From assembly GCA_963678705.1 (NCBI GenBank), contig OY783205.1, forward strand, positions 2,046,001 through 2,110,000: a stretch of DNA of 64,000 nt. Direction: 5' to 3'. Every line of letters starts with the position of its first letter. Position 1 is the first letter of the stretch. The stretch is from Panorpa germanica (Eukaryota; Arthropoda; Insecta; Mecoptera; Panorpidae). The notes under the pieces are model-generated. The model had not been told where the DNA came from. It saw nothing but the letters and a program-made list of their open reading frames with translations, and made no database searches. This document shows, piece by piece, positions 21,486-62,149 of this stretch. The position numbers and the translations under genes are program-made.

Positions 21486-22090
21486 TTTATCCCCGTCGCA
21501 AAGCGACGTCTTTTTGGCGTGTATGATTGGAATCCAATAAAATAATTCGTAATTACATTTCATATTTAATTCTATTTTTAAATTGAAATAATAAATAAAC
21601 TCGCTCAATAATAAAATAATTTTTATTAACATATTTAATTCTAATTTTTAAATTGAATTAATAAACTCGCACAATAATAAAATAATTTTTCAATTTATCA
21701 AAATAAAAAACATTTTCAATTTATGCGTTATTTGACCAACTTTTTTTCAAAATTTGGGATTTTTTTTCGATTCGTAAATAAGTTACCAATTTCAAAATTT
21801 TATTTGGGGTCACGGGTGCGGTTTTTGCCGAGGATAAAAATTGTACTAGAAAGTTGAAATTTGTTATATAGGCTAACTTTGATACCTTATTTTCGAATTA
21901 AAAAAAAAATCCCAAATTTTGAAGAAAAAGATGGTCAAATAATGAATAAATTGAAAATAATTTTTATTTTGTTGAAAAAAATACGAGTATACTTTTTTAT
22001 TCAGTTTTTTAGAAAAATTATTTGTTTTTATATGTAAAATTTATATAGAACGAGTTAAATATTTCAATTTAAAAATGGATTTAAAATTTG
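21486..22090. mobile_element. Fold-back Helitron remnant
   Basis: The left end is the inverted 3' terminus of the Helitron family of 27.6-32.8 kb: on the minus strand a CGTCGC/GCGACG hairpin, then GGGGATAAACTCTAA followed by T. From about 21715 to 21960 the sequence folds on itself: TTTGACCAACTTTTTTTCAA on the left reappears inverted as a TTGAAGAAAAAGATGGTCAA-like stretch on the right. The right end matches the opposite orientation of the family (compare 58950-58990). It therefore looks like two Helitron pieces head to head. Confidence 0.6.
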
Positions 22091-23147
22091 AAATGAAATT
22101 CAATTTGATAAGGTGATAAAATATTTTAGAAGTAAGTAAATACAAAGTAGGTTACGTAAACTCAACATAACTTAGTACTCTTCCTGAAGACTGCACTCAA
22201 TACAACTTGTGTGATGAAGTTAATACTAAAGAAGCGGGAGGAGGAGCAACTGGCCAACTAAAGCTGCACGCATAATTATCCCAACGCTAATCATGTTGAA
22301 GTGTAGTGTTGAAGGAATACACATAGTTAAGTACACAATAGGCCTGGTTTTGTTGACACAGTTGCACCGAAATCGGTAGTTTAATTATTGGTAATAACAA
22401 GTAACATAAAGCAGTCTTACACATCAAAATGTTCAGGCGACACTCACTAAATTACATTTACACTTTGCTTTAAAAACATATGAATAATAAGTTATGTTAT
22501 AATTTCATTTTGACGCATGTTTTTGTACACATGACTCTCTCTATCTAAACTAATTATTACTTCTCCTATATAAAACAGATATAAATATACAACCGTCTTA
22601 TTTTTAACATTATTTGCTAAAATGGATGTACAAGCAACTCTCTGTCAGTTACATTAAGAATGTGTCCACCACATTTCAGTCAAATCACATCAAGAAATAT
22701 GAGTCCCGATAATGGACTTGCCGATACCATCATAGTTACCTATCGGCACTAAGTATAGCCAAATCAACGCTGAGCTTAATTCTACGTCTAACTTCATTTA
22801 AATTAGTGATTTAGTTTAAAAGTTTTACTCATGCAAATATTTTGTAAATAAAAACACTTTTAAAAATGAATAATTAATTAATTAACTTGTCAATAACTAA
22901 AAATTATTAAATTACTTACTACATTTTGTTAAACCCATGTTAAACTTGCTTAAACTATGTGAACCTCTGTCTAAATGACGTAATAATACAATATATAACA
23001 CATAACGATAAGGTTTTTAAATTTATTAAAATTGAAAGTTTTTTAATGTGTGTGTTACGTACACAAAGTCTCATTAGTTGAAGATTCTGAATAAATGACC
23101 TTCCCCATTTAACACAATGGTAAGACTGTTAAACGGTATGAAGTCTT

Positions 23148-23920
23148 TTATCTTCGGCTAAATGACATTTGACACAAATCACAGGTATAAGGTTTTTCTC
23201 CCGTATGTGTGAGCATATGACTTTTCAAGTTATTATTCTGCCTAAATGACATGGAACACTTACCACAAGGATAAGGTCTTTCTCCTGTATGTGTAAGCAT
23301 ATGAATTTTCAAGGTATCTCTACGGTTAAATGACATTGAACACTTATCACAAGGGTAAGGTTTTTCTCCCGTATGTGTACGCATATGACTTCTCAAGTTA
23401 TTATTCTGGCTAAATGACATTGAACACTTATTACAAGGGTAAGGTTTTTCTCCTGTATGTGTACGTATATGAATTTTTAAGTTACTTCTACGGCTAAATG
23501 ACATTGAACACTTATCACAAGGATAAGGTCTTTCTCTCGTATGGATACGTTTATGATCAGTCAAATTTAATAAAGACGGAAATGATTTCCCACACTGATC
23601 ACAATAATGACGTATTGTCTTAGTGTCTGATCTCTGTGTAACACCCAATAAAGTTGGGGACCAATTCGATGCATTATTACGTGAGTTATCAGAATAAAGT
23701 GTTCCTACATTGTCTGAGTTTGCATTGACTCCACTGGAATATAGCTTATTTAATTTATCGCAAGACGACATCTTCTTGGATTTCTTTGCACACAAAGGGT
23801 TTTGCAAAATATTTGTTGATATAAAGGACTCTTGACATGTATCACAAAAGAACTTTTCCTCTAATAATCCACTTGGGGTCAGAAGATCTGGTTGAGTTCT
23901 TTCCATATTTACCAAGTTAT
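23148..23920 (-). CDS. C2H2 zinc-finger gene copy 1, finger exon
   Basis: Terminal exon, read from an acceptor at TTTCAG|ATAAC (exon base 23920) to TAA at 23148. The preceding exon ends in G, giving GAT AAC, so the frame does not depend on an ATG here. It starts with a linker (NLVNMERTQPDLL), then a degenerate CDTCQES finger whose usual His is Pro in this copy, then [10 protein letters not shown] and four YPC(D/N/G)KCSMSF fingers with TGEKP/TGERP linkers. The last finger (YTCDLCQMSFSRR) stops after its first half: compared with copy 4, the rest of that finger and the final YKCDHC finger are deleted and the join reads straight into TAA. That leaves five complete fingers. It is predicted to be a nuclear DNA-binding protein. 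An AATAAA on the minus strand at 23022-23027 lies about 120 nt beyond the stop and is kept in all copies. It may still be expressed, though shortened. Confidence 0.85.
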
Positions 23921-24330
23921 CTGAAAGATGTTACAAATAAACAATATTGAAAAATATTTTCAAAATTTACGAAGTGATTCATTCATAATAAAGGTCAAAC
24001 AAAATGAATTAAAAATAAATTCAATTATCGAGCGACCAAAGAACAATTGCGTTCAGAAATCAATATAACTTTGTTACTTGTGAACAGAAATTGTGGTTAG
24101 AACGTATTTTCAAAATCGGAAGCGACGTAAACTTCAGCAAATAAATAAATGTGTAATTAATTAAACAATAAATTATGATCAAAAAAATTATAAGAAATGC
24201 ACACCCCGAAGACAAACAGTAAATGTAAAAGCGAAAACGCCAACATTTTGACAAAGTACAAATATTGCAAATAATCAAATAATTTGTATTAATTACTTTT
24301 CATAGAGGTGTTCTTCTAAATCGAATTTAC

Positions 24331-24877
24331 CTGCTTCGGTCGTACTGATTGTCGGTAATGAAGGATCTAATACTGCATCACTTTCTTGTCTACAAGGCAG
24401 AGTGTAGTTGTGTGTCTCAATTTCCACTTCTTGTTTAACCGACCTAGAATATAGTAACTGAATTGCATTAGCATCTGCTGCTGTGTACCTTTTGAAGTAA
24501 CTTAATATTTTATTCCGTGAACTATTTTAGAAATTTAGTGCTAAAATGTTTAGAAAATGATCCGAAACTGATCATACGTACTGACAGATCTCGCAGATAA
24601 CTTGATTGGGATCATCTTCGACTTCTTCTTCCTTATATGTCAGTACGTATGGAATTCAGGATTTGAGGAAGGGCAGGCGGACCTACTGCCCCGGGGCCTC
24701 CACAAGTGACACAAAAACAATGAATTATTGAAAGAGTTGAAGAGAAAAAGAGTGTACCTTTTGTTCGGAATATAATTAGAGGCCTCCACTGGTTCGTCGC
24801 ACCAGGGCCTCCACATCTCTGAATTCGATACTGGTATAATTGGTACTTTATTTTCCATCCTGATTTTCTTTTTGCAC
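24331..24877 (-). CDS. Zinc-finger gene copy 1, upstream exons
   Basis: Exon 2 is 24331-24443 (113 bp), from TTCTAG|GTCGG to GAAGCAG|GTAAAT. It encodes SVKQEVE, then an acidic linker containing YTLPCRQESDA, and ends in phase with the finger exon. An upstream exon at 24758-24877 runs from ACTTATAG|GTGC to AAAAG|GTACAC and contains the ATG of MENKVPIIPVSNSEMWRPW at 24858. Between them, around 24573-24690, lies a remnant encoding DDPNQVICEIC that ends at once in a stop (QYV*), because the following 0.7 kb found in copy 2 is absent. How these exons join is uncertain: the MENK frame does not run into the remnant's frame. Splice sites were chosen by conservation among four copies. Confidence 0.55.
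24573..24651. repeat. 14-bp inverted repeat at deletion junction, copy 1
   Basis: CATACGTACTGACA (24573-24586) and TGTCAGTACGTATG (24638-24651) flank a 51-bp spacer. The left arm sits exactly where copy 2 has 0.7 kb of extra sequence. Confidence 0.9.
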
Positions 24878-24980
24878 CTATAAGTAAAATATATGTAAGT
24901 AAGTTTGGTAATTTTTGTTTAATCATTTCTGTTGCTTACGTGTCTTACAAAGTGAGGTTAGGTTTTCTATTTGAACAACT

Positions 24981-25211
24981 GACAATAATTTGACGAATTA
25001 TAAAATGGTAAAGCAAGATGGACTCGTTACTATTTTGACGTTTGCGGATTCATAAAATGCTTTTGATGTAATTTATGCTAGTAGAAATGTCTCCCATTTA
25101 CACTGTTCTGCCTCTCTTCAACAATTATTAACAGGAAAACAAAGCATCTATTGAAACATCGCATGAAACACAACTTGTTTCCTTCAATTACTGGTTTTGA
25201 ACTTTATATTT
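24981..25211 (-). promoter_or_regulatory. Near-invariant 231-bp upstream block, unit 1
   Basis: From GACAATAATTTGACG to TTTATATTTA this block reads the same in all four units, with one base different in unit 3, while flanks and even exons have drifted. It lies 0.1-0.3 kb upstream of the first conserved exon. It contains only a 15-codon minus-strand frame (MGDISTSINYIKSIL). Promoter or first non-coding exon are the simplest readings; function is inferred. Confidence 0.5.
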
Positions 25212-25813
25212 ATTTTTTCTATTGATTTTATTTTCTATTGTATTTTACTTTCTGTAGATAAATTGTTTTAGCATTAAAGAAATTATGGTTTAAAATTGTA
25301 GTCAGTTACAGATATTACATTGGAATATTCGAGAAGGATTCTTGTTCTAACTTGCACTTCTATATTATTATACTCGTATTAATTGATTTCAAATACAAAA
25401 CTAATCATGCAAATCAGGCTACAGCAACTCAGACCAATACAATACAACCACACTGTAATTCTGCTAATACTGTACTGGCGGTAAAATTGTAGTAGTACAG
25501 TGTACAGTGGTGTATTCATAAATTTTAAAGAAGATTCTATCACCGTCAGTTTATCTTATGATAAGGTAAACTAATGCGAAACACTCTAATACATCCAACT
25601 TAAAAAGTCGTCGTAGCATGTAGTATGCTGCAGTGCAAGAGCGACCTTAAATTTTTAAATTATGATTAGATATTGAAGAATAGAATAAGATGGTACAGAA
25701 TTAAGTAAATTGCAACAACGATTTAATATATTTTTTCTAAAATAAATCATAGTGTCATATGATACTGCTATTTTAACAGTTACAGAGATCAAAAGTTAAA
25801 AAAATTAGAACAA

Positions 25814-25826
25814 CACGTGACGTCAC
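25814..25826. promoter_or_regulatory. E-box/CRE-like motif CACGTGACGTCAC, unit 1
   Basis: CACGTG overlaps TGACGTCA. The same 13 bp is kept in units 2, 3 and 4 at the matching place, about 0.9-1 kb upstream of the first conserved exon. Such sites are bound by bHLH and bZIP factors; use here is inferred. Confidence 0.45.
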
Positions 25827-26223
25827 TGGTGTGTCCTGAGTTATCAACTGATTAGTGTGTTATAAATTTATATAAATAAATCTGCTTATAAGCATATTAC
25901 ATACATATCAATAAAAATACTTAAAAATCTGCTCTAAAAACTGACAAACGATTTATTCTTGACTTGTCACACTATAAATTTTAATACTAAAATATAATAT
26001 ATTGTTGAGATAAATAATAAAACAATTTAATTAAACTAAATTAGTGTTATTAAAAGAGTAATTACTATTAAAACAATTCACTGAAACATAAAGATATAGA
26101 TTAATCTTCTTCATTCGTTTGCGGGCATTGTAGTACTGGCTTTGTTAGATTTGTTTTCCCATATTAAAACAATAAAACAAAAATATTTTAAAAAATCACA
26201 ACTTCAAGTTAGATGTATTACAG

Positions 26224-26849
26224 TCTGTCCTATGTCTTAATTTCTATAAAAGTGTGCTATATATTGATAAAGTGGGTTACTAGAACCTCAAATGTTCAAT
26301 TATTTTTTAATAACTCCTTATATGTTAAGATATATTAACAATTAAAAAAGTAATTTTGTCTCTTTAATTATTAAAGGGATTCAACGTTGTACACATTCCA
26401 AGTGCATGTGACATCACAATCCTTGTGTAAGGTTACCAACCTTACAGCACATAAATCTCTGCTATATGTATTCATATTGTATATCAAAATATCAAATATT
26501 ATTTCAAGGAACAATCAAATTTCAATATTATGCCTGCCTTAGCAGGGTTAAATAAAATAAAAACTTATTATTCTTTGATTTGACTTAATTATTTGACAAC
26601 CAACAGCTGCAAAACATTACCACAGCACTGAACTACTCAACAAATAACTGACGTTAAAATGCATTTCACGTCATACAAATATGGACGACCATTTCTAGCG
26701 CTAAAACTACAATTCAAACTTTTAATTGCTATATCTGCGTCAACATTTAGATATTTAATGAAATAGACACGCCAATACACATTTATTAACATCAATTTCA
26801 ATGAACAATTGAAAAATCGACAACTAAAAAATGAGGACACAAGTCCATT
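26224..26849 (-). mobile_element. TIR element, AATGGGCTTGTGTCC family, in unit 1
   Basis: Reverse-orientation relative of 9277-9859. The right end AGGACACAAGTCCATT is kept and the left end is decayed (CTGTCCTATGTC). Compared with units 2-4 it replaces about 45 bp of unit sequence (the TTTAAGCATTTATTAAATT region), so insertion was followed or accompanied by a small deletion. Confidence 0.8.
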
Positions 26850-31529: not shown

Positions 31530-31533
31530 AGAT

Positions 31534-33030: not shown

Positions 33031-34737
33031 AATTCAACGAGAATTAACATAATTCCTGGCTTATGATTTTACTTTCAGAAAAGGTATTGGAATTGTGTGT
33101 TGTGAAATAATAGATAAATATTTAATTATAATATTTTTCTTATATTTTGAGATCGTATTTCTAATACAATGTTGTTCCTTGATAATGAATAACTTAAGTA
33201 TAGACAGGTACTTTTATCAGGAATTATTTTTATATTGTAGTAGGATAAAATATTTATATGTAGTTGGGTTAGTTTAGCGATTAAAGCCGACAAGTGTTAA
33301 GGTGACTAGGTAAAATAACATATATATATGTATATACATGTCAGTAAGGAATGTAGTGGAATGATTGACTTGTAGTAAAACGAATAATGAACGAGAAAAT
33401 ATGATAAACATATTTAGGTAAACCTAAATCAGATGTCTTATAGTGAAAATAACAGGAAGGATAATAAAATATTAGACACTTCTATCATTTTAAATTAGAA
33501 TTATTAAGACAATTGTGCAGATACTTTTAGATCATAGATAGTGCTAAAGTTAGTGGGGTTTTAAGTTTATATTAAAAAAAATAATGTTTATATTATGAAG
33601 TAACAAAAATGAAAAAAATATTTTGTACTTTCCAAAAATAGAAAATAGGTTTGTGAAAGTTTTCAAATAAAATATAAAATTATATACCCTTAAAAGATAT
33701 TTAAATAGATATTTAGTATTTTGTAATTGCATTTTCAGAATACGTATTTGAAAAACGCACATCTCTGTTTATTATAGTCTTTTAAAATGTTGCACACATC
33801 TTCATGCGCTATGGTATATGACAAAACAAAACTCGAGCAGTAAAAGACAAAGGCCGTGTTGCAAACCAACCAAACACATTACTGACCAACCTGAAGGTAA
33901 TAAGGTGTGATGAAGGTAATACTAAAGAAGCGGGAGGAGGAGCAACTTGCCAACTAAAGCAGCACGCAAAATTATCCCAACGCCAATCATGTATCGTGTT
34001 GCAGAAATACACATAGTTAAGTACACAATAGGCATGGTTTTGATGACGCAGTTGACGCACTAAATTACATTTACACTTTGCTTTAAAAACATATGAATAA
34101 TAAGTTATGTTATAATTTCATTTTGACGCATGTTTTTGTACACATGACTCTCTCTATCTAAACTAATTTATACTTCTCCTATATAAAACAGATATAAATA
34201 TACAACCGTCTTATTTTTAACATTATTTGCTAAAATGGATGTACAAGCAACTCTCTGTCAGTTACATTAAGAATGTGTCCTACACATTCAGTCAAACCAC
34301 ATCTACAAATATGAGTAACGATAATGGACTTGCCGATATCGTCATAGTTAGCGGCACTAAGTATAGCCAAATCAACGTCGAGCTTAATTCTACGTCTAAC
34401 TTCATTTAAATTAGTAATTTAGTTTAAAAGTTTTACTCATGCAAATATTTTGTAAATAAAAACACTTTTAAAAATGAATAATTTATTAATTAACTTGTCA
34501 ATAACTAAGAATTATTAAACTTACTTACTACATTTTGTTAAACCCATGTTAAACTTGCTTAAACTATGTGAACCTCTGTCTAAATGACGTAATAATACAA
34601 TATATAACACATAACGAAAAGGCTTTTAAATTTATTAAAATTGAAAGTTTTTTAATGTGTGTGTTACGTACACAAAGTCTCATTAGTTGAAGATTCTGAA
34701 TAAATGACCTTCCTTATTTACCACAATGGTAAGACTG

Positions 34738-37384: not shown

Positions 37385-37487
37385 CTATAAGTAAAATATA
37401 TGTAAGTAAGTTTAGTAATTTTTGTTTAATCATTTCTGTTGCTTACGTGTCTTACAAAGTGAGGTTAGGTTTTCTACTTTAACAACT

Positions 37488-45721: not shown

Positions 45722-45734
45722 CACGTGACGTCAC
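45722..45734. promoter_or_regulatory. E-box/CRE-like motif CACGTGACGTCAC, unit 3
   Basis: Same motif and relative place as in unit 1. Confidence 0.45.
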
Positions 45735-47603: not shown

Positions 47604-47614
47604 TATATAATATA

Positions 47615-49109
47615 CTAGTAAACCCGGCGAACTCCGTTTCGCCATCAGATGGCTTCGTTTTATGTAACATTTCGTTTGGTGATTAAAAGATGAAGAAAAA
47701 TTTTTTGTTTGTTTTATATTTGAAAAGGAAAAATTTTATTTCATTTCACAACAGTAATGAATTCATATCGATTAGTGTTATTTAGTTGAACTTCTCTAAG
47801 TAAATGAAAGTAAATCCAAAGTAAATACTGAATCGAAGCGTTATACGTGTCCGCAAATTATCCGTTTCATTAAAGTGCTCTTTGGTTAACCACATTTTTT
47901 GTTTTTTGGTCTGACGTAAACTCAAACAAAGCAGATGGTTTCCCAACTCGTAAACACGCAACGTATAACTGCTCATGTGAAAAACAATGATTTTTTATCA
48001 TGCAAACACTAAGCGATTGGCCTTGCGATTTGTTAATTGTCATTGCGAACGCAAGGCGAACTGGAAATTCCAATCGTTTGAAGTCAAACGGAAGATCAGT
48101 CGGAATCATTGGTATTCGAGGAATACATACATTTTCACCTGCGTACTTTCCGTTAATAATGGTTGCCTCAATTAAATTCGGCATAAGTCTTTTTATCGAA
48201 AGTCGAGTACCGTTGCAAAGTCGCGGTGGATTCAAATTACGCAATATCATAATAACTGTACCAACTTTGAGTTGCAAGTTATGTGGTGGAAATCCTGGTA
48301 ACTCCAGAGAGTTCAAAAACTCCGTTGGATAATTTACTACATCATCGGGATTTGTTATGGAATCAACGGATTTGTATGTCACCAAATCGCCAGCAATTTT
48401 TGATGGAATTGTGAAATTCAGTGCGTGTACATCATTATTCTTTGCGGCAAGAATTGCTCGTTGACTTAACCAAGCATATTTCTGATAATTCTCACTAATG
48501 TTTGGGAAAACATTTTCAATAAGAGCTAATTGAGAGTCTACAAATCGGCAAAAGTCGTTGGTAAGAGTAATTAATCCAGATGTCGCATCAACTGGGACTT
48601 TTCAATTTCCAACAGCTAACAATTGTTTGGAAAATTGTGCAGCACTTTGATCATTTTGAAGTTGAACTCTCATATTAGTGGTTAGCGATAATGTTTTTAC
48701 GTTATTTCATAAAGGTGATGCCTTCAGGCAAGCATTCAATTCATCTGCAGGCGTTCCACGGGGAATTACTGGCAACGTCTGCCTGAAATCGCCTGCCAAC
48801 AATATCATCATCACATGAAATTAACTGAGCAGAGAACAATGAGTAGCTGTCAAACAATATATCACGCACCGGCGCCATCTATTAAAATATTGGTTTGTAT
48901 CTATGCTATGTATCAGAGATGGCGCTGTATGTATTAAAAGATATTCCCGCTTTTCTGTTGAAATTTTTCCTGAATTCCTGAATTTTCTTTGCTATAAACC
49001 TCACGGAGCCCGAGACCTTTCCAACGAATGCAAAACCGTGAAAATCGGTTCATGCGTTCTGGAGTTATAACGTCAGGAAGGAAAACCCGACTTATTTTTA
49101 TATAGTAGA
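47615..49109 (-). mobile_element. Helitron with helicase remnant (1.5 kb)
   Basis: On the minus strand it starts TCTACTATATAAAAATAAG after an A and ends with a GGCGAA/TTCGCC hairpin, then GGGTTTACTAG followed by T: the classic TC...hairpin-CTRR structure inserted between A and T. It lies directly beside the LINE, inserted one base after that element's right target duplication. It carries only a C-terminal helicase piece, so it is deletion-derived. Confidence 0.85.
47870..48815 (-). pseudogene. Pif1-like Helitron helicase, C-terminal fragment
   Basis: The minus strand from about 48815 reads GDFRQTLPVIPRGTP (helicase motif III region), then pieces with NMRVQLQNDQSAAQFSKQLL and LTNDFCRFVDS. The last 171 codons (47870-48385) hold LKVGTVIMILRNLNPPRLCN and LAFAMTINKSQGQSL, which match the C-terminal motifs V and VI of Pif1-family helicases in Helitrons. 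The Rep nuclease and the N-terminal helicase (Walker A) parts are absent, and the 5' portion is broken by at least one stop. In intact elements the protein drives rolling-circle transposition; here it is inactive. Confidence 0.85.
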
Positions 49110-50352
49110 TAATAATACAATATATTGTTGAGATAAATGATAAAACAATTTAATTAAGCTAAATTAGTGTTATTAAAAGAACAACATTTATTAAAATAAC
49201 ACACAGAGACAGAGAAATATAGATTGATCTTCTTCATTCGTTTGCGGGCATTGTAGTACTGGTTTTGCTAGATTTGTTTTCCCATATTAAAATAATAAAA
49301 CAAAAATATTTTAGAAAATCACAACTTCAAGTAAGATGCATTACAGTTTTAGGCATTTAATAAATTACAATTGCTCTGTTCATGCTAAGTGATTTATCCA
49401 ACCATATAATCTATGAATTATTTGAATTAGTGAAAATATAAGTCTTTGTAATATTCAGTTAACTAATTAATATAAGGTAAGTTTAAAACGTTAAGGCAGC
49501 TCTGTTAAGTTTTATAAAAAACACGTGGTTTTCTATAAAGGACGTCGCGTAAGAACCTAATCGAGCGCGAATTTATTACTTGATTTTTTATTTAATTTTA
49601 TTATATATTTTTTATTTTATAAATCGCTATCTGGGGGTAGTGACTTATTTGTGAAGAAAATAAGGGATGTAAGCTTAATACAATATATTTTAACTTTTGC
49701 CGTATGAACAAATATTTTAGAAGTAACCTAAAAGTAACAAAATTAAATTTTAAAACAATGTATAATGTACAATGGAAGAGGACAACAATATGAATAGACA
49801 ATAATTTCCTTTCTCTTGCAAACAATTATAAATATTCTGCAAACAGTGTTAAAACAGAATCAATTCAATAAAACATGATCAACTATATAAAAATGATAAA
49901 CATTCAAAATTAAAAACTACGAGTATATCAAACTATATAGAAATATGTTTGCTTCGATCCACGCAATACTGAACAATCACGTTAAAATTGTGTGCTCCAA
50001 TGTTCTATTGATGATGGTCTATTATTTTAGGTTATAAATTTACATATTTTATTTTATTATTTTGTAATTATACTTTCCTTGTAAGTAACAAAACTTAATT
50101 TTATGAGTACCTGTTAATGTTATTATTATTATTTTTTATATTTTAATTATTATTATTTATGTGGATACCCTCAAATAACAATATTTATTATAGTCTTTTA
50201 AATAGTTGCATACATGTTCATGCACTATGGTATATTACAACAAAGAAAACTACAGCAAGATCAAAAACTCAAAAACATTATCGAAATTATGCTTCTAATT
50301 ATCGTTTTCTCTTCATATAATAGCATAAAATAGTTTATGCTTCTCCTATATG

Positions 50353-53300
50353 CAGTGGCGTAGCGTGCCTTAGAGGGGCCCCGTATCAAAATTTGTTGGG
50401 CGGCCCTAATAATAAGTAAAGATTTTTTACAAAAGGAACAAAAACGCTCGCATTGAATTAAAATAATTATATATTGATTATACGTTATTACTTACAATTA
50501 ATACTATTAGGAACTAAGCTAGCCAAACAATTCAAATCAAATATACACTGTTCATGCTTTTTGTAGGGCGAACTTATTTATTAAACCATTTATAGAAGCG
50601 AAACTGAAGGGGATTTCAGTTTTTCTAAATGTTCTGCTTCTATATACAATAATGACAAGTCTGATAGCCTTTCCAGTCCCATAGAAGTGTTTAGAAGAAT
50701 AGAAAGCATGGTGTTGTTACCTCCGGAAAACTGGATGCAAGGCAATTGAATTTTGTCAGTAATAATTTCATGAGTTCTTCACGGAATGAATTTTCTGAAT
50801 TTCAGATTTTAAGCATGTTTGAAAGCAATGAATTGTTCATAAAGATCAACTGACATGTCTTTACTGTATTTAGCAGACAGTTTTCCTGCATGCTTTTTTA
50901 TTATTTCGTTTGAAAAAGATAAGAGTTTCTCCGGTTGTAATACTTCGAACATACTACTTAGGCCACAGAGACCCTGAAATCTTGTTCACTTTGAGAAATT
51001 AATCTATCTAAACAGCAATAGTATATATTGATTTTGAAGTTCAATTCCGTGTTTGAAATTCTCTCATATTCTCATAACTCATCAAAAAACGCTTCGTTAT
51101 CTTCCTTCTTTGATTTTTGAAAACAATTGTTACACCCAACTGTTTTGCTAAATTTCTGGACTCGTTCAGCAATCCATGGTATGAATTTGGATTTCTTATT
51201 TCGCTCAGTCCATTCAAAAGATTACTTAGAAAAATGTTAGCTTTCTGTAAGTCACTAATTTCATGCTGTAGAGCTCTAGAAACAGGATTAATGATTTCAA
51301 ATAGTGAAGAAAAAAAGGCGACAGGCACTACAAAATCCTAGATCTCTGAAACGTTAGTTATATTCTTACATTCGTCACGTTCGTCTTTTTTAGTGGAAAT
51401 TAAATTTAGTTGGTAAGAAGTTTTCATTATTAAAGGGTATATGCAGAAGAAGGATGTTGATTGCAATCAAACCTTCAGCCCAGTGGCTAGAATGAGTACA
51501 GTTAGAGCTCTGATAAGCATTGCTGCAGATGAAAAGTTGCAATTGACTTAATTTGATATATCGACTGCATTTCTATATGGAAACATTGATAATGAAGGGA
51601 GTCATATTTATATGAAGCAACCTAATGGCTACAAAGATGGTAGTGCACTTGTTTGTAGACTGCAGAAGAGTTTGTATGGATTGAAACAAGCACCTCGATG
51701 CTGGAATCAGCGCTTTAATGAATTTTTGTATAAACTTGGGTTTAAGCAAAGTGATGCTGATCCATGTTTATTTATAATGAAAAATGGAAATGAAAAACTT
51801 ATGTTGACTATATTTGTTGATGACGGACTTTTGGCTTCAAATAGTCAAGAAATGTTAAACCAGTTTCTAATTAATCTGAAAAATGAATTTAAAATAACAT
51901 ATAAACCTGCAGATTTTTATTTGGGATTAGAAATTGAACATGTTGAAAATGGAATAAAATTAAGTCAATCTTCTTATGCTAAAAGGATTTTAGAATATCT
52001 TAAAATGGAAGAATGCAAACCTGTATCAACCCCATTAGAGACATCAACTACTACTGAAGCAGGGAAAGAAATGAATGACATTGCTGGTTATTCATATAGA
52101 CAGGTTGTAGGTGCACTAATGTACCTCATGATTGGATCAAGACCTGATTTAGCTTTTGCAGTGGGAGCATTGTCCAGGTCACTAGAAAATCCAACCTATC
52201 AAGACTGGTTGAAGGTTAAAAGGATTTTAAGATGTATAAAAGGAACCTTCGATCGTGGAATCATTTATAAAAATAATTGTGAAAAAGTATTGTTATGCTA
52301 TAGTGATGCTGATCATGCAGGGGACATTACAACTGGTAGGTCCACTTCTGGAGTACTAAGCATGTATGCAGGTGGCTGCATTTCCTGGTTTAGTAAACGG
52401 CCATCTCAACCACAAAAGCTGAGATTGTAGCAGCTAGTGAAGCACCGAAAGAGGCTGTGTGGCTGAAAAGGCTGACAGAAGATATGGTGGAGCTACAAAG
52501 TAATCTTGACCTCTATATTGATAATGAAGCAGCTTTGAAACTTTCACAAAACCCGGAGTTCCATAAAAGAACTAAACACATACGTGTAAGACACTTCTTT
52601 GTTCGGGAACTTGTAACCGAGGATGAAATCAGCGTGAAGAAAATTTCATCTGAAAATCAACTAGCTGACTTATTGACAAAACCCTTGCCTAGATCGAGAC
52701 ACATAGTGTTATGTAATAAACTTGGACTTAGTGCTATCAAAAATAACCTATAAAAAGAAATACCTAACTGTAAAATGAAGGGAAAGTATTGAATTTTGTC
52801 ATATTCAGTAGGCTTTGTTATTAATAAGCTTTTGTTTTTTGTGTGATTATTGAATATATTAAATTGCCTTCAGCAAATGTTTTTGTTACTCTTATTATTT
52901 TATATATAGATATAAAATAGTTAGTAGTTAGTTTGTTGTCAGTTCAAAAATACAAAAATTTTATATTTTTCAAATAAATCGTTAGTCAACATTGACCAGC
53001 GTTTTATACTATTGCTAAGAGAAGTATTTATTTTTTCCAAGTTATCGAGAAAAATGGACACTTCAGGAACACGTATCGCAGCATCGTTTAAAATTAAATT
53101 TAATGCGTGTGTCACACTATGAACATAATCGGCATTTGGGGCATGCTCATTTTTAAGGGCTTGTAATCCTCCATATACACCTGACATAACATTTGCTCCA
53201 TCGTAATTCTGCCTTCTACATTTGAAAAAATCAATTCCATATTATTTTATGGTATTTAAGATTGGTCCAAAGTTGGTCCATTTTTGACAGGTCTTGTGTT

Positions 53301-53585
53301 ATATCCAGAATATTCGCCAGAAATAGAACTTCTACAATTTCTAAAGCAATATTTTCTGTAACTGTGCCACAAAGCAAATAAACAATATCATTTTGAATCG
53401 AAAACTTTTTTAGACACGTTGGACACTGTTTTACGATATAATTTTTTCTAAGGAAGTACAGCCTAAGAGTTTAAGTGAGATTGTGCTTAACATTTTACGA
53501 ATTTTGGCTTACACATGTTTGAAGCCCCTATAGTCCGGGGGCCCTTATCATTATTATGGCTGATACACTGGTAGCTGCGCCACTG
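50353..53585 (-). mobile_element. hAT transposon (ZMYM1-like) with 8-bp target duplication, copia fragment nested inside
   Basis: CCTATATG at 50345-50352 and 53586-53593 flanks it. Termini are CAGTGGCGTAGC and GCTGCGCCACTG. Units 1 and 2 show the empty site TCTCCTATATAAAACAG. Minus-strand pieces encode parts of a DUF4371/hAT transposase as in ZMYM1-like proteins: NYDGANVMSGVYGGLQA and YVHSVTHALNLILNDAA (53.0-53.2 kb), then SLFEIINPVSRALQ (51.2-51.33 kb). The N-terminal region is largely missing. A retroelement fossil at about 51433-52956 interrupts it; the unbroken sequence is seen in 60400-61909. Confidence 0.85.
51433..52956 (+). mobile_element. Ty1/copia retroelement fossil, 3' part
   Basis: Contains the reverse transcriptase and RNase H region of a copia-type polyprotein (RT recognisable by SLYGLKQAPRCWNQRF and the FVDD active-site box, RNase H by the closing DLLTKPLPR motif), then a purine-rich tract near 52775 and an AT-rich 3' LTR remnant. 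The 5' half (gag, protease, integrase) is missing, and the remaining part has about one or two further breaks. It is inserted into the hAT. Its LTR remnant does not resemble the LTR at 62150, so it is probably a different family. Confidence 0.85.
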
Positions 53586-54150
53586 CCTATATGATACAGA
53601 TATTGGGATACAACCGTCTTATTTTTAACACTATTTGCTAAAATGAATGTACAAGCAACTCTCTGTCAGTTACATTAAGAATGTGTCCTACACATTTCAG
53701 TCAAATCACATCAAGAAATATGAGTCCCGATAATGGACTTGCCGACATCGTCATAGTTAGCTATCGGCACTAAGTATAGCCAAATCAATGCCGAGCTTAA
53801 TTCAACATCTAACTTCATTTAGATTGGTAATTTAGTTTAAAAGTTTTACTCATGCATATATTTTGTAAATAAAATGGCTTTTAAAAATGAATAATTTATT
53901 AATTTACTTGTCAATAACTAAAAATTATTAAAATTACTTACTACATTTTGTTAATCCCATGTTAAACTTGCTTAAACTATGTAAACCTCTGTCTAGATGA
54001 CGTAATAATACAATATATAACATATAACGATAAGGTTTTTAAATTTATTAAAATTGAAAGTTTTTTAATGTGTGTGTTACGTACACAAAGTCTCATTAGT
54101 TGAAGATTCTGAATAAATGATCTTCCCTATTTAACACAATGGTAAGACTG

Positions 54151-54952
<802 letters not shown>

Positions 54953-55355
54953 CTGAAAGATGTTACAAATAAACATTAATGAAAAATATTTTCAAAATTT
55001 ACGAAGTGATTCATTTGAAGGTCAAAAAAAATAAATTCAATTACAGAGCGACCAAAGAACAATTGCGTTCAGAATTCAATATAACTTTGTTACTTGTGAA
55101 CAGAAATTGTGGTTAGAACGTATTGTTAAAATCGCAAAATCGGAAGTGACGTAAACTTCAGCAAATAAATATAAAGTGTAATTAATTAAATAATAAATTA
55201 TGATCGAAAAAATTATAAGAAATGCACACGCCGAAGACAAACAGTAAATGGAAAAGCGAAAATGCCAACATTTTGACATAGTACATATATTGCAAATAAT
55301 CAAATAATTCGTATTAATTACTTTTCATAGAGGTGTTCTTCTAAATCGAATTTAC

Positions 55356-55906
55356 CTGCTTCGGTCGTACTGATTGCCGGTAATGAAGGATCTAATAGTG
55401 CATCACTTTCTTGTCTACAAGGCAGAGTGTAGTTGTGTTTCTCATTTTCCACATCTTGTTTAACTGACCTTGAATACAGTAACTGAATTGCATTAGGATC
55501 TGCTGCTGTGTACCTTTGAAGTAACTTAATATTTAATTCCGTGAACTATTTTAGAAATTTAGTGTTAAAATGTTTCGAAAATGATCCGAAACTGAATATA
55601 CGTACTGACAGATCTCGCAGATAACTTAATTGGGATCATCTTCGACTTCTTCTTCTTTATATGTCAGTACGTATGGTATTCAGTCTCGGATTTGAGGAAG
55701 GGCAGGCGGACCTACTGCCCCGGGGGCTCCACAAGTGACACAAATACAATGAATTATTGAAAGAGTTGAAGAGAAAAAGAGTGTACCTTTTGTTCGGAAA
55801 ATAATTAGGGGCCTCCAATGGTTCGTCGCACCAGGGCCTCCACATCTCTGAATTCGATACTGATATAATTGGTACTTTATTTTCCATCCTGATTTTCTTT
55901 TTGCAC
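55356..55906 (-). pseudogene. Zinc-finger gene copy 4, upstream exons
   Basis: Exon 2 equivalent 55356-55468 (acceptor TTCAAG|GTCAG, donor GCAG|GTAAAT) and first-exon equivalent 55787-55906 with MENKVPIISVSNSEMWRPW. The ZAD-like exon is truncated, with the inverted repeat ATACGTACTGACA (55598-55610) / TGTCAGTACGTAT (55662-55674). Confidence 0.55.
55598..55674. repeat. 13-bp inverted repeat at deletion junction, copy 4
   Basis: Same layout as copies 1 and 3, with the outermost base pair changed. Confidence 0.9.
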
Positions 55907-56009
55907 CTATAAGTAAAATATATGTAAGTAAGTTAAGTAATTTTTGTTTAATCATTTCTGTTGCTTACGTGTCTTACAAAGTGAGGTTAGGTTTTCTATT
56001 TGAACAACT

Positions 56010-56240
56010 GACAATAATTTGACGAATTATAAAATGGTAAAGCAAGATGGACTCGTTACTATTTTGACGTTTGCGGATTCATAAAATGCTTTTGATGTAA
56101 TTTATGCTAGTAGAAATGTCTCCCATTTACACTGTTCTGCCTCTCTTCAACAATTATTAACAGGAAAACAAAGCATCTATTGAAACATCGCATGAAACAC
56201 AACTTGTTTCCTTCAATTACTGGTTTTGAACTTTATATTT
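56010..56240 (-). promoter_or_regulatory. Near-invariant upstream block, unit 4
   Basis: Reads the same as 24981-25211 by eye although the gene below it is broken. Confidence 0.5.
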
Positions 56241-56832
56241 AATTTTTCTATTGATTTTATTTTCTATTGTATTTTACTTTTCTGTAGATAAATTGTTTTA
56301 GCATTAAAGAAATTATGGTTTAAAATTGTAGTCAGTTACAGATATTACATTGGAATATTCGAGAAGGATTCTTGTTCTAACTTGCACTACTATATTATTA
56401 TACTCGTATGAATTGATTTCAAATACAAAACTAATCATGCAAATCAGGCTACAGCAACTCATACCAATACAATACAACCACACTGTAATTCTGCTAATAC
56501 TGTACTGGTGGTAAAATTGTAGTAGTACAGTGTACAGTGGTGTATTCATCAATATTAAAGAATATTAGATAACCGTCGGTTCATCTTATGATAAGGTAAA
56601 CTAATGCGAAACACTCTAACACATCCAACTCAAAAAGTCGTTGTCGCATGTAGTATGCTGCAGTGTAAGAGCGCCCTTAATTTTTTAAATTATGTTTAGA
56701 TATTGAAGAATAGAATAAGATGGTACAGAATTAAGTAAATCGCAACGATTTAATACATTTTTTCTTAAATAAATCATTTGGTAATGCTATTTTAACAGTT
56801 CCAGAGATCAAAAGTTATAAAAATTAGAACAA

Positions 56833-56845
56833 CACGTGACGTCAC
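56833..56845. promoter_or_regulatory. E-box/CRE-like motif CACGTGACGTCAC, unit 4
   Basis: Same motif and relative place as in unit 1. Confidence 0.4.
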
Positions 56846-58314
56846 GGGTGCGTCCTGTGTTAGCGACTAATTAGTGTGTTACAACAGAGTCTACAAGAGC
56901 AAGCATTTCAAACGATCTTTGTAGCCCTAAATGTCTGACAGGAACCTAACCAACCTTGAGGCTCAGTTTCAAATATTATCTACAGGTGTTCAAACAACAA
57001 TAACATTTCTTATAAAATGACCGTTGTAAATAGGGTTGCCTAGGAATATCAACGCTTACAAAACATTTTTAAATCACTGACGTATTTAACATACAAATTA
57101 CGCCGACAAAAGATGGCTTAGGTAAAACTGAAGCGGAAAACCAAAGATGTAAGTAAATTTATATAAGTAAATCTGCTTATTAGCATATTACATACATATC
57201 AATAAAAGTACTTAAAAATCTGCTCTAAAAACTGATAAACGATTTATTCTTGACTTGACACACTATAAATTTTAATACTAAAATACAATATATTGTTGAG
57301 ATAAATAATAAAACAATTTAATTAAACTAAATTAGTGTTATTAAAAGAACAACATTTATTTAAACAACACATTGAGACAGAGAAATATAGATTAATCTTC
57401 TTCATTCGTTTGCGGGCATTGTTAGAATTGTTTTCCCATATTAAAATAATAAAACAAAAATATTTTACAAAATCACAACTTTAAGTAAGATGCATTACAG
57501 TTTTAAGCATTTATTAATTTACAATTGCTCTGTTCATTCTAAGTGATTTATCCAACCATATAATCTATGAATTATTTGAATTAGTGAAAATATAAGTCTT
57601 TGTAATATTCAGTTTACTAATTAATATAAGGTAAGTTTAAAACGTGAAGACAGCCCTGTTAAGTTTTATAAAAAACACGTGGTTTTCTATAAGGGACGTC
57701 GCGTAAGAACCTAATCGAGCGTGAATTTGTTACTTGATTTTTTATTTAACTTTATTATATATTTTTTATTTTATTAATCGCTATCTGGGGGTAGTGACTT
57801 ATTTGTGAAGAAAATAAGGGATGTAAGCTTAATACAATGTATTTTAACTTTTACCGTATGAACGTATAATTACAACTCTTATTTTAGAACTCACTTAAAA
57901 GTAACAAAATCTAATTTTAAAACAATGTATAATGTACAATGGAAGAGGATAACAATATCAATAGACAATAATTTCCTTTCTCTTGCGAACAATTATAAAT
58001 ATTCTGTAAACAGTGTTAGAACAGAATCAATTCAATAAAACATGATCAATTGAAACTATATCAAACTGTATAGAAATACGTTTGCTTCGATCCACGCAAT
58101 ACTGAACAATCTCGTTAAAATTGTGTGCTCCAATGTTCTATTGATGATGGTCTATTATTTTAGGTTATAAATTTACATATTTTATTTTATTATTTTGTAA
58201 TTATACTTTTCTTGTAAGTAACAAAAATTAATTTTATGAGTACCTGCTAATGTTATTATTATTATTTTTTATATTTTAATTATTATTATTTATGTGGATA
58301 CCCTCAAATGATAT

Positions 58315-59032
58315 TCATATATTATAATGTTCCAAGTGTGTATTTATATGTTTGCTTGTTGCTGAAATTCGTATGGTAGAATGAAAACGGCTCCGTCAAT
58401 GTTTTTGAAAGTTTGCTATTTCGTAGAGAAAAAAGGGTTTCCCCTGAATTTCCTGAAATCCCGTAATTTTGGAAAAACTAAAAAAAAATTTTTTACTTTT
58501 TGCTCTATAAATTTTAATTTGTAAAAGATAGAAAGTTAAAATTTGGTATGCGTATTACGATGTTCAATTCTAACATTACTTGAAATTTAGAAATTAAACA
58601 ATTGGAATAGGTTGCGTTGAGAAAATACAGGACCCGGTAGGAAATTTTGGTGAAAACTCAAGTTTTTAAATACTTAATAATAAAACATGTTATTAAAAAA
58701 AAAAATTCAAAAATTTTATTTGGTGGCACAAGGGCGGTTTTTGTCGAGGGTAAAAATTGTTCTAGGAAGTTGAAATTTGATACATGGGCTAATTTTTGGT
58801 ACCTGATTTACGAATCGAAAGAAAAAATCCCAAATTTAAAAAAAATGTTGGTCAAATAAGGAATAAATTGAACATATTTTATATTTTATTGAAAAAAAAT
58901 AATATTTTTTTTGTTAATTTATTTGATAAATTATTTTATTATTGGGCGAGTTAAATATTTCAATTTGAAAATAGAATTAAAATTTGAATGAACACTAAAA
59001 AGACGTCGCATTGCGACGGGGGTAAACTTCAG
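58315..59032 (+). mobile_element. Helitron of the 27.6-32.8 kb family, opposite orientation
   Basis: It starts TCATATATTATAATGTTCC and ends with the imperfect hairpin ACGTCGCATTGCGACG, then GGGGTAAACTTCAG followed by T. It sits between ACCCTCAAAT and TATTTATTATAG, the same unit edge where the 6.7-kb hAT landed between units 1 and 2. Shorter than A and B; the modular interior is lost. A 70-codon frame inside is not a gene. Confidence 0.7.
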
Positions 59033-59036: not shown

Positions 59037-62000
59037 TATTATAGTCTTTTAAATAGTTGCATACATGTTCATGTACTATGGTATATTACAAAAAAAAGAC
59101 TACAGCAAGATCTTGCGATAGCTACAGTAAGGCAAGATATTGAAACTGGAGCAGTAAAAGATAAAGATTTATTTCATTGCAAGTATTGTTTAGTAATTTT
59201 AATGAAATGGATAAGGTGAGAAAACATTTTAGAAGTAAGTAAATACTAAGTAAAATGCGTTACGTAAACTGAACATAACTTAGTACTTTTCCTGAAGACT
59301 GGACTCAATACAACTTGTGTGATGTTGGTAATACTAAAGAAGCGGGAGGAGGAGCAATTTGCCAACTAAAGCTGCACGCATAATTATCCCAACGCTAATC
59401 ATGTTGAAGAAACACATATAGTTAAGTACACATGCACTCGCATCTCGGGCTGCATAAAAAGTCAGTGCGGTAAGAACTTTGTTATACAGTCCCGTATTTG
59501 TGGAACACACTAGCATCATGACTTACGCGATTTCTATAGTGGTGCTACTTTAAGTTTTTAAATTTAAAATATTCACTGGCATTCAACAAGATCTGGTAAA
59601 GTAGACATAAAGTAGACATAACAAACTCAATGTTACAAACATATTATTATCATTAAATACGTTCAACGAATATCTGTCTTTTAAGGGGATACGGTTTTAC
59701 CTTATTTTTTCATTTTCTTATATTTGTTTATATTAATGTACAACATATTAAGTTTATTGTGTGAAAATTTGAAGTCGATTGGAGAAAAACTGTCGGAGAT
59801 TTAGACTTTAAAGTCTTCACCTCTCTGGTCTGGTTTTGTCTTACTTTTGAAACTTTTAATGCGTTGTTCTCACACATACCTTTTTCAGAGTCGGTGCCCT
59901 TTTTAGCTGAAAATCTACTGGGCCGATTCTTTTAAAATTTTGCACATTTTTTCTTTACATAAATTTCGTGGTAACGGTGTTCAGTTTTTTTTAATTTTTT
60001 TAGAATACCAAAGTTTTTGATTCTTTTCATGAAAAATCGGTATTTTGACTGAATTGAAAAATCAATAAAAAATAACTCGATAGAGTTACCTGCAGAAATT
60101 TATCAACTAATGAAATTATTTTGGATTTTTGATTTCAGAAAATCCATTGATGAGTTATGAGTGGCACCGTAATGTTACTTTTTTGCAACGTCTGCGGAGA
60201 TTCGCTGTCAATGGCTCATTTCTTGATATTTATTTATGAAAACTTCACAAAGTGTTTTTTAAATAATATTTTATCATGTAGTGATTGTAGTAATAATTAT
60301 ATATTAACTGTGTCCTTAAAAACATTATCGAAAATATGCTTTTAATTATCGTTTTCTCTTCATATAATAGCATAAAATAATTTATGTTTCTCCTATTTGC
60401 AGTGGCGCGCCTTAGATTCCCGTATGAAAATTTGTTGGGGGGGGCCAAATAATCGGTAAAGATTTTTTACAAAAGGAACAAAAACGCTCACATTGAATTT
60501 AAATAATTATATATTGATTATACGTTATTACTTACAATTAATACTCCTAGGAACTAAGTTAGCCAAACAATTCAAATCAAATATACACTTTTCTTGCGTT
60601 TTGTTCGGCGAACTTATTTATTAAATCAATTATAGAAGCGAAACTGAAGGCGCTTTCAGCTTTTCTAAATGGTCTGCTTCTATAGACAATAGTGACAAGT
60701 CTGATAGCCTTTCCAGTCCCATAGAAGTGTTTAGAAGAATAGAAAGCATGGTGTTGTTACCTCCGGAAAACTGGATGCAAGGCAATTGAATTTTATCAGT
60801 AATAATTCCATGAGTTCCTTACGGAATGAATTTTCTGAATTTCAGATTTTAAGCATATTTGCAAAGCAATTAATTGTTCATAAAGATCAACTGACATGTC
60901 TTTACTGTATTTAGCAGACAATTTTTCTGCATACTTTTTATTATTTCGTTTGAAAAAGATGAGAGTTTCTCCGGTTGCAATACTTCGAACATACTACTTA
61001 GGTCACAGAGGCTCTGAAATCTTTGTTTAGTTTGAGAAATGAATCTATCTAAACAGCAATAGTATATATTGATTTTGATGTTCAATTCTATGTTTGAAAT
61101 TCTCTCATCTTTTCATGACTCATCAAAAAAACGCTTCGTTATCTTCCTTCTTTTATTTTTGAAAACAGTTATTACACCCAACTGTTTTACTAAATCTCAG
61201 GACTCGTTCAGCAAACCATGGCATGAATTTGGATTTCTTATTTCGCTCAGTCTATTCAAAAGATTACTTAGAAAAATGTTAGCTTTTTGTAAGTCATTAA
61301 TTTCAAGCTGTAGAGCTTAAGAAACAGGATTAATGATTTCAAATAGTAAAGAAAAAAAGGCGACAAGCACTACAAAATCGTAGATCTCTGAAATGATAAT
61401 TACATTTTTACATTCGTCACGTTCGTCTTTTTTAGTGGAAATTAAATTCAGTTGGTATAAAAATTTCATTATTAATGAATAATTTTTCCTAATAACTGAT
61501 AAAGCGTCGTTTCTTATAGACCATCTAGTAGGACACATCATTTTGAGGGTAATTTTATATTTTTCAAATGAATCGTTAGTCAACATTGACCAGCGTTTTA
61601 TACTATTGCTGAAAGAAGTATTTATTTTTTCTAAGTTATCGAGAAAAATGGACACTTCAGGAACACGTATCGCAGCATCGTTTAAAATTAAATTTTATGC
61701 GTGTGCCACACAATGAACATAATCGGCATTTGGGGCAGGCTCATTTTTAAGGGCTTGTAATATAATTTTTTCTAGGGAAGTACAGCCTAAGAGTTTAAGT
61801 GAGATTGTGCATAACATTTTACAAATTTTGGATTACACATGTTTGGAGCCCCTATAGCCCGGGGGCCTTTATCATTGATACGGTTGATACAGTGGTAGCT
61901 GCGCCACTGCCTATATTATACAGATATTTAGATACAACCGTTTTATTTTTAGCACAATTTGCTAAAATGGATGTACAAGCAACTCTCTGTCAGTTACATT

Positions 62001-62149
62001 AAGAATGTGTCCTACACATTTCAGTCAAACCACATCAAGAAATATGAGTCCCGATAATGGACTTGCCGATACCGTCATAGTTAGCTATCGGCACTAAGTA
62101 TAGCCAAATCAACGCCGAGCTTAATTCTACGTCTAACTTCATTTAAATT
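59037..62149 (-). repeat. Tandem unit 5 (3' flank only), interrupted by a retroelement
   Basis: Begins TTATTATAGTCTTTTAAATAG and is collinear with unit 3 through TTAAGGGGATACGGTTTTACC (59680) and with units 1-4 through TACAAGCAACTCTCTGTCAG (61975) to ACTTCATTTAAATT. A fifth zinc-finger gene would be expected past the retroelement, beyond the window. Confidence 0.8.
60400..61909 (-). mobile_element. hAT (ZMYM1-like) remnant in unit 5
   Basis: Termini CAGTGGCGCGCC and GCTGCGCCACTG, flanked by CCTATTTG and CCTATATT, decayed forms of the unit 4 duplication, so the insertion predates the duplication that made units 4 and 5. The minus strand encodes SIFLDNLEKINTSFSNSIKR and MMCPTRWSIRNDALSVI (TRW is a hallmark of this hAT group), then FEIINPVS. 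The N-terminal region is missing and there are frame breaks. It is not interrupted by the retroelement found in the unit 4 copy. Confidence 0.8.

Follow-up and report, generated by a model that had tools for sequence, protein, structure and literature searches.

A young tandem cluster of C2H2 zinc-finger genes in Panorpa germanica whose predicted first coding exon appears to derive in part from a hAT-type MITE

The window analysed here, a stretch of 64,000 nucleotides on chromosome 2 of Panorpa germanica, carries several copies of a C2H2 zinc-finger gene. The initial annotation described it as a birth-and-death cluster of five duplicated whole units starting near 22.1, 33.8, 40.6, 50.2 and 59.0 kb, and the low ends found by us (approximately 22442, 34055, 40836, 50268 and 59167) lie close to these starts. 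Because self-comparison of the window revealed long direct repeats across gene, introns and both flanks, the similarity extends well outside the finger exons, contrary to the alternative raised in the same annotation. For example, the match of 22565-25865 to 53586-56884 covers 3334 aligned columns at 91.6%, and that of 40836-42582 to 59167-60951 stands at 92.7%. The five-unit array is thus real, but the fifth gene is not in the window: only the 3' flank of unit 5 lies there, and its gene was found past the right edge (window-equivalent 67224-69107), beyond a 4.7-kb Copia element. The four gene copies inside the window are all on the minus strand.

22442..26224, minus strand: unit 1, comprising the gene and both its flanks; matches 34055-36369, 53586-56884 and 57154-57501
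34055..40628, minus strand: unit 2, from self-comparison; keeps a stretch of about 660 bp (36425-37083) and has extra sequence at 38431-39309
40836..50192, minus strand: unit 3, interrupted at about 46185-49097 by non-unit sequence with a Pif1-domain frame
50268..58326, minus strand: unit 4, with an interruption from 51433 to 53436 and, at 51552-52430, a frame for a Copia-type reverse transcriptase
59167..62152, minus strand: unit 5, 3' flank only, from self-comparison; gene beyond the right edge
62150..64000 in the window, continuing to window-equivalent 66821, plus strand: Copia element splitting unit 5, with LTRs

The LTRs of this element differ at 2 of 263 positions, and the 5-bp sequence AAATT is present on both sides. 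On self-comparison, a long 3' block common to units 3-5 was not shown by units 1 and 2. The array had been expected to extend to the right, and it does so by the gene of unit 5 alone; no further C2H2 finger pattern was detected between 67.7 and 214 kb in window-equivalent positions (strict pattern, six frames).

The cluster would be young and would have grown by duplication of whole gene-plus-flank units. Divergence between the units is 2-8% for most noncoding parts, with one part reaching 11%. Searching the genome with the family linker identified 12 places: the five described here, six on chromosome 3 and one on an unplaced contig. Trees, suggested as a check in the initial annotation, gave a mixed outcome. 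The five units came together weakly (55/25), and units 2, 3 and 5 were joined strongly (99/95) in the exon 4-to-linker tree, which was midpoint-rooted and had copy C3b on a long branch. A deletion that sets units 1, 3, 4 and 5 against unit 2 conflicts with the grouping of 2, 3 and 5, and no clean unit tree could be obtained, all ten possible two-against-three splits occurring among the 49 informative sites. The 660-bp stretch of unit 2 is absent from units 1, 3, 4 and 5; its first 250 bp recur in five chromosome 3 relatives, and 514 bp of it in copy C219. The conflict between tree, deletion and sites fits exchange between units. Signs of conversion came from the longest shared runs of the pair of units 2 and 5 (0 of 1000 shuffles) and of the pair 3 and 4 (P 0.005; uncorrected values for ten pairs, the remaining eight at P >= 0.067), and from a neighbour-compatibility test among the units (P 0.04). 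Such conversion may have reshaped the cluster, as may decay, the insertion of transposons, and finger repeats of 84 bp being gained or lost.

The predicted gene would be spliced from exon 2, with the start codon, through exon 4, encoding a linker, to exon 5, encoding further linker and the fingers. In-frame models are 411 aa long in unit 2 and 354 aa in unit 3, and each of the five units retains the predicted GT and AG splice sites.

24758..24858, minus strand: unit 1, exon 2 coding part, running from the start codon to the donor and partly transposon-derived
37265..37365, minus strand: unit 2, exon 2 coding part
44739..44839, minus strand: unit 3, exon 2 coding part
55787..55887, minus strand: unit 4, exon 2 coding part
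24331..24488, minus strand: unit 1, exon 4, VKQEVE-containing linker
36130..36287, minus strand: unit 2, exon 4
44232..44470, minus strand: unit 3, exon 4, 81 bp longer
55356..55513, minus strand: unit 4, exon 4
23148..23920, minus strand: unit 1, exon 5, encoding linker and fingers; a 17-bp gap has removed the final finger
34738..35714, minus strand: unit 2, exon 5; open as far as the shared stop, 8 fingers
43073..43797, minus strand: unit 3, exon 5; open as far as the shared stop, 5 fingers
54151..54952, minus strand: unit 4, exon 5; gaps of 2, 4 and 1 bp disrupt the frame

Finger number and integrity vary between the copies as annotated, and the birth-and-death description holds: by pattern, units 1 to 5 have 5, 8, 5, 6 and 6 fingers, the number changing in 84-bp steps, and a full open frame is kept only in units 2 and 3, the other three genes being damaged each at different points. 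The fingers are of the tandem C-x2-C-x12-H-x3-H type with TGE[KR]P-type linkers, and PF00096 and PF13465 scored over cut-off in all three exon-5 frames scanned (units 1, 2 and 3). A motif filter selected 37 of the 64 fingers found; in these, zinc ligands, Phe and Leu are invariant and helix positions -1, 1, 2, 3 and 6 variable; DNA-contact positions thus vary while the scaffolds stay fixed. The genes are presumably expressed, and their predicted proteins would most likely bind DNA through the fingers, act as fast-changing transcription factors and perhaps, by analogy with other such clusters, repress repeats. The cluster itself is of an ordinary, fast-evolving kind. What appears to be new is that the predicted first coding exon is chimeric, deriving in part from a MITE.

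This element is approximately 180 bp long, with inverted-repeat ends CAGtGCCGaATTTAGAGG and CCTCAAATCCGGGCCTG and an 8-bp target duplication; on the basis of its ends and the duplication length we take it to be of the hAT type. All 40 genomic places scored, drawn from 1646 first-look candidates, matched it. Eighteen copies were examined for the duplication, which was perfect in all five whose flanks were both fully read by script and in a sixth read by eye; the right flank was truncated in two copies, of which one agreed (3/3 bases) and the other did not (1/2). In the zinc-finger family the flanks agree at 7 of 8 positions in C3c, C3d and C219 and at 6 of 8 in C3b; in the window's own units they agree at just 4 to 6 of 8.

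24657..24833, minus strand: hAT-type MITE, unit 1
37159..37340, minus strand: hAT-type MITE, unit 2
44638..44814, minus strand: hAT-type MITE, unit 3
55681..55862, minus strand: hAT-type MITE, unit 4

Counted after the A of the start codon, the MITE sits 25 bases into the coding sequence, where it supplies codons, including those of a WRPW tetrapeptide, and the predicted splice donor of exon 2. The donor GT is present in all 11 family copies with exon 2 and in none of 19 element copies, of which 18 were read by script and L046 by eye; this set is the yield of a protein search and biased toward open, WRPW-like copies. Some family copies depart from the common form of exon 2: C3a and C3f lack WRPW, C3f also has a stop, and C219 lacks the start codon.

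The pyrimidine tract of the exon 4 acceptor appeared weak by eye. A separate exon 3 was considered because CEIC-like codons are present at about 24.6 kb in unit 1, and was rejected: this region consists of the far MITE end and the stranded remainder of an old exon, shows no acceptor fitting its frame, and is mostly lost in units 1, 3, 4 and 5. Likewise, a GAAAA/GT donor where the open frame of exon 4 ends was rejected because joining it to exon 5 creates a stop; the GCAG/GT donor joins in frame.

Taken together, a young five-copy C2H2 cluster formed by unit duplication, with a chimeric, MITE-split exon 2 and splicing as predicted, is the explanation we favour with modest confidence. A different, rather unlikely reading places the MITE in plain 5' noncoding sequence, translation starting at a later methionine in exon 5 and yielding a protein that consists of linker and fingers and is free of transposon-derived residues. 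An ATG of this kind (MSSC/F/S) is indeed present in all 12 copies, and an earlier one in exon 5 (MERTQ or MEITQ) in ten, units 3 and 5 being the exceptions. The lengths of the upstream exons argue against it. Exon 2 is 71, 98 or 101 nt long (11 of the 12 copies have it) and exon 4 140, 158, 239 or 2423 nt (both sites were found in 10 of 12), all 2 mod 3, whereas intron 4 falls into all three modulo-three classes among 11 copies. The exons hold this class through gaps of 30, 3, 81 and 18 bp, and through 84-bp expansions in one copy; furthermore, exon 4 is stop-free in nine of the ten copies measured. In a hand-tallied comparison covering exons 2 and 4 and the linker, with unit 4 left out, coding gaps were multiples of three in 5/5 cases and noncoding gaps in 5/17 (P = 0.0096), a fragile result, which changes to P = 0.052 on adding the 17-bp finger gap of unit 1, to 0.085 on adding the two linker gaps of unit 4, and to 0.23 with all four frame-breaking gaps.

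It is rather unlikely that the cluster is a decaying leftover of duplication with pseudogenes only, a reading that shares the cluster history with our preferred one, so that their odds overlap. Three of the five genes are damaged, and the non-finger coding parts are no more conserved than noncoding sequence: among units 1, 2, 3 and 5, 61/568 sites vary in the former and 140/1725 in the latter (P = 0.06). For the linker alone the figure is 36/309 (P = 0.048), a higher variable fraction than in noncoding sequence. Linker dN/dS, 0.69 over 12 copies, is 0.91 among the same four units, near 1 within the cluster. Against general decay stand the full open frames of units 2 and 3, the splice sites retained in every unit, the invariant finger scaffold with its variable contacts, and the preserved length classes.

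The favoured explanation, a chimeric exon 2, implies an older exon that was not split. A first exon without the MITE occurs at six places in the genome, five of them open and with a phase-2 donor; because four of these five are near-identical, they represent about two independent cases. A link to a zinc-finger gene was shown for none of the five open copies. When the MITE was removed by script, an open frame into the old module resulted in units 1, 2, 3 and 5 and a stop in unit 4; none of four chromosome 3 or C219 copies tried gave an open frame. Of the two forms, the unsplit one presumably came first. The MITE would then have split this first coding exon, and a GT within it, in phase 2 like the donors of the unsplit copies, would now serve as splice donor; with this donor in use, the old CxxC...HxH N-terminal module would be cut out and about 25 transposon-derived residues would stand in its place.

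A bolder proposal, that a non-autonomous hAT element gave the gene both its donor and a Groucho-recruiting WRPW in place of the old module, creating KRAB-like repressors that multiplied on chromosomes 2 and 3, is improbable. If true, DNA-binding proteins with a possible role in silencing transposons would have acquired their repressor motif from a transposon. WRPW is present in 9/11 family copies with exon 2 and in 17/19 element copies, a set biased by its WRPW-holding query, and no selection on the motif beyond the element background was found. Him and Ripply1 are WRPW proteins binding Groucho, with the motif near the N terminus in Ripply1 (PMC1955682), as in the predicted Panorpa proteins, whose WRPW, unlike theirs, comes from a MITE.

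Membership of the ZAD-ZNF class, common in insects, is very improbable. This is an insect genome with many zf-AD matches, and the tandem C2H2 array is C-terminal; however, PF07776 did not exceed its cut-off of 28 bits in any of four sequences scanned (unit 2's piece of the old exon scored 13.8), and the cluster contains none of the 148 zf-AD matches listed, for which 150 of 273 candidates were scored. Like the ZAD-ZNF genes as outlined in PMC7655104, the Panorpa family combines an N-terminal part, a linker and C-terminal fingers with gene turnover and linker change (in ZAD-ZNF the linker is one of the parts with signs of adaptation), but its predicted N terminus is partly MITE-derived.

That the array is an assembly artefact, another alternative of the initial annotation, is hardly credible, whether through joined haplotypes or collapsed repeats: such errors existed before curation, since curators removed 14 haplotypic duplications, but the assembly is HiFi at 52x with QV 59.9 (PMC11464959), the 264 kb read contain no N, and the units diverge by several per cent over most of their noncoding sequence and have private insertions and deletions.

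It is chiefly the N-terminal part that distinguishes one large C2H2 family from another, and its origin is usually lost; capture of transposases by host genes includes KRAB cases. Mammalian KRAB-ZNF clusters are described as arising through duplicated blocks of genes and transposons, with pseudogenes and variable finger arrays (PMC12575710); the Panorpa cluster is similar, but has five copies, and no KRAB family was found up to E 10 in the predicted N-terminal part and linker. Judged by description alone, the FiNZ-ZNF family of cyprinid fish is also lineage-limited, and its short N-terminal sequence resembles no known domain; the outline in PMC10547256 does not give a transposon origin for it. 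Transposon sequence enters host proteins when transposase domains are captured (PMC12062965); here, in contrast, a short element without transposase would give codons and a predicted donor. Among titles in one open collection, none dealt with Mecoptera zinc-finger clusters or a MITE-derived N terminus of a zinc-finger family. In this genome many copies of the donor element persist, the flank repeat can still be seen, and the presumed older exon survives in unsplit form, so that the steps by which a zinc-finger family may lose one N-terminal module and gain another can be set out.

The cluster is genuine and unremarkable for C2H2 genes, and the point of interest at the locus is the first coding exon, which is predicted, from sequence anatomy and the kept length classes of the exons, to be chimeric. 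Self-comparison of the window, extended by 50 kb leftwards and 150 kb rightwards, yielded direct repeats covering genes, introns and flanks, confirming the tandem array of wholly duplicated units proposed in the initial annotation.

Features of the array (window at C2:2046001-2110000; genome of 464.2 Mb)
23.2 kb, minus strand: finger exon of unit 1, 5 pattern-matched fingers
34.8 kb, minus strand: finger exon of unit 2, 8 pattern-matched fingers
43.1 kb, minus strand: finger exon of unit 3, 5 pattern-matched fingers
54.2 kb, minus strand: finger exon of unit 4, 6 pattern-matched fingers
67.2 kb, right of the window, minus strand: finger exon of unit 5, 6 pattern-matched fingers
62150-66821: Copia element cutting unit 5; LTR divergence 2 of 263 positions, AAATT on both sides

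The array had also been expected to extend to the right. It does so by one gene (67.2 kb) and no further, as a pattern search found no finger pattern to the right of the fifth array up to window-equivalent 214 kb. The finger-exon positions and this empty stretch show an array of five units; the window contains four of the genes, and the fifth, beyond its right edge, is the last. Leftwards, the sole other finger-pattern match was a three-finger C2H2 stretch (770-1000, plus strand), separate from the cluster and on the opposite strand. Direct repeats of about 1.4 kb lie between units 1 and 2 (28249-32837; 28399-29798 is 92% identical to 29802-31238), and related segments occur near 21.8, 58.4 and 70.3 kb. 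The interior of unit 3 holds a 288-aa open frame without a Pfam match (46558-47424, plus strand) and a Pif1 2B domain frame (47870-48601, minus strand), perhaps a piece of a Helitron.

The cluster behaves as ZNF birth-and-death arrays do elsewhere: in the mouse, a KRAB-ZNF cluster is described as growing via duplicated gene blocks that include their transposons (PMC12575710), and a preference for binding transposons has been predicted for ZNFs from diverse animals (PMC10547256). Domain tests of the family for ZAD-ZNF and KRAB-ZNF membership were both negative. When the exon-5 linker was searched against the genome and 150 of 1696 candidates were scored, 12 strong places were found (E <= 2.4e-39; next match E 0.0014), five in the cluster, six on chromosome 3 (C3a to C3f), of which four lie near 25.55 Mb and two near 15.9 Mb, and one on the small contig C219; all 12 linkers were read.

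Pairwise divergence between units in seven noncoding segments was 1.9-7.7%, excepting the intron part derived from a MITE (see below), where it was 2.6-11.3% with unit 2 as the outlier. At an insect mutation rate near 3 x 10^-9 per site and generation, and one generation per year, 4-5% divergence would correspond to some 7-8 million years, a figure that is only a guide. A tree grouped all five units with weak support (55/25) and units 2, 3 and 5 with strong support (99/95), whereas a stretch of about 660 bp is shared by unit 2 with copies on chromosome 3 and C219 and absent from units 1, 3, 4 and 5. This conflict points to sequence exchange between units, as do the long runs of identity that unit 2 shares with unit 5 and unit 3 with unit 4.

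The gene model was derived from the five-unit alignment, with exons joined in silico. Exon 2 has 101 coding nt (ATG to AAAAG/GT), exon 4, from AAAG/G to GCAG/GT, is 158 or 239 nt long, and exon 5 runs from CAG/AT through the stop, giving predicted proteins of 343, 411, 354 and 387 residues for units 1, 2, 3 and 5, respectively. The last finger is lost via a 17-bp gap in unit 1 and via a TGA in unit 5, and gaps of 2, 4 and 1 bp disrupt the frame of unit 4.

A search with the exon 2 plus exon 4 protein revealed that the second half of exon 2 recurs genome-wide. Of 20 places read, 19 were copies of a hAT-type element (MITE) of about 180 bp, starting with CAGTGCCGAATTTAGAGG and ending with CCTCAAATCCGGGCCTG, and one was the family member C3a. 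Among 18 copies examined, 8-bp target duplications were perfect in all five whose flanks were both fully read by script and, by eye, in one more; one copy with a cut flank had a mismatch at one of two bases. In a DNA search all 40 places examined, out of 1646 first-look candidates, matched, so that the element has at least 40 copies and probably far more. In the family the insertion begins 25 bases past the A of the start codon. Of the 8 positions compared between its two flanks, 7 agree in C3c, C3d and C219, 6 in C3b and 4 to 6 in the cluster's five units.

Six further loci carry the exon unsplit: one each on C16, C13 and C5, two on C174 and one on chromosome 2 at 14.16 Mb. Since the C16, C13 and C174 copies are near-identical, these represent about three sequence types. 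Five of the six have an open frame, a start codon, the pattern EEVxDPN...CxIC...NLxxEDPHxH and a phase-2 GTAAGT donor; the remaining copy has a stop and lacks this donor. No Pfam family matched the unsplit exon above cut-off. When the MITE and one flank copy were deleted by script, units 1, 2, 3 and 5 opened into the old CxxC...HxH module, the presumed earlier first-exon module that the MITE splits in this family, farthest in unit 2, and unit 4 hit a stop. The same deletion put all four copies tried from chromosome 3 and C219 out of frame, as expected if the old-module part is now intron. At the position where the family has AAAAG/GT the element copies have AAAAGGAAC; each of the 11 family copies that contain exon 2 has GT at the donor position, and none of the 19 element copies does (18 read by script, L046 by eye). 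The predicted new donor is in phase 2, as in the unsplit exon, so exon 4 can be read in frame. The old module also lies just upstream of a Myb/SANT-like frame (PF13837, 45 bits; G000:C5:22887101-22890090, L066 and L079), and may be common to different transcription-factor types. A 562-aa frame downstream of one unsplit copy (G000:C13:16050239-16052738, L078) is reverse-transcriptase-like by eye, thus some unsplit copies may lie beside or within repeats.

Among the 12 copies, the 11 that have exon 2 show lengths of 71, 98 or 101 nt for it, and the 10 with both exon 4 sites show lengths of 140, 158, 239 or 2423 nt for that exon; every length leaves remainder 2 mod 3. Intron 4 lengths (11 copies) leave more than one remainder. 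The gap test was less clear than these length classes: with damaged stretches excluded, multiples of three made up 5/5 coding vs 5/17 noncoding gaps (P 0.0096), and counting all frame-breaking gaps, 5/9 coding gaps (P 0.23). Exon 4 of units 3 and 5 is 81 bp longer and contains one extra copy of a 28-residue repeat. In C3a exon 4 (G000:C3:25543216-25545258; L031, L039) this non-finger repeat occurs about 25 times, with a period of 84 bp, equal to that of the fingers.

The MWRPW of exon 2 resembles the Groucho-binding tetrapeptide, reported for Ripply1 to function near the N terminus (PMC1955682). Among the 19 element copies, whose selection was biased by the query, 17 encode WRPW in the same frame, and 2 of 11 family copies lack it. 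As the motif is element-encoded and missing from these two, no selection on it is evident.

Of 64 fingers found, 37 passed a motif filter; in these the zinc ligands, Phe and Leu were invariant and the most variable sites were helix positions -1, 1, 2, 3 and 6 and the residue preceding the helix. A fixed scaffold with a variable helix is the usual pattern of arrays maintained as DNA binders with shifting targets. Constraint is low beyond the fingers, where the variability of coding sites equals or slightly exceeds that of noncoding sites (61/568 vs 140/1725, P = 0.06). Linker dN/dS was 0.69 (12 copies), 0.60 (the seven outside the cluster) and 0.91 (units 1, 2, 3 and 5); exon 2 gave 0.39 (7 copies, excluding C3a, C3d, C3f and C219) and 0.56 (five units), descriptive values based on few changes. 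Adaptive linker change has been reported for several ZAD-ZNF genes (PMC7655104).

Two further zinc-finger loci were seen in the genome. At G000:C5:16.670-16.694 Mb, open frames of 3812, 2596 and 3272 aa, free of internal stops and with C2H2 matches, possibly encode giant finger proteins. At G000:C3:20.824-20.867 Mb, seven equal-scoring zf-AD matches, most spaced 6.2 kb among the matches listed, are likely a tandem array of near-identical ZAD exons.
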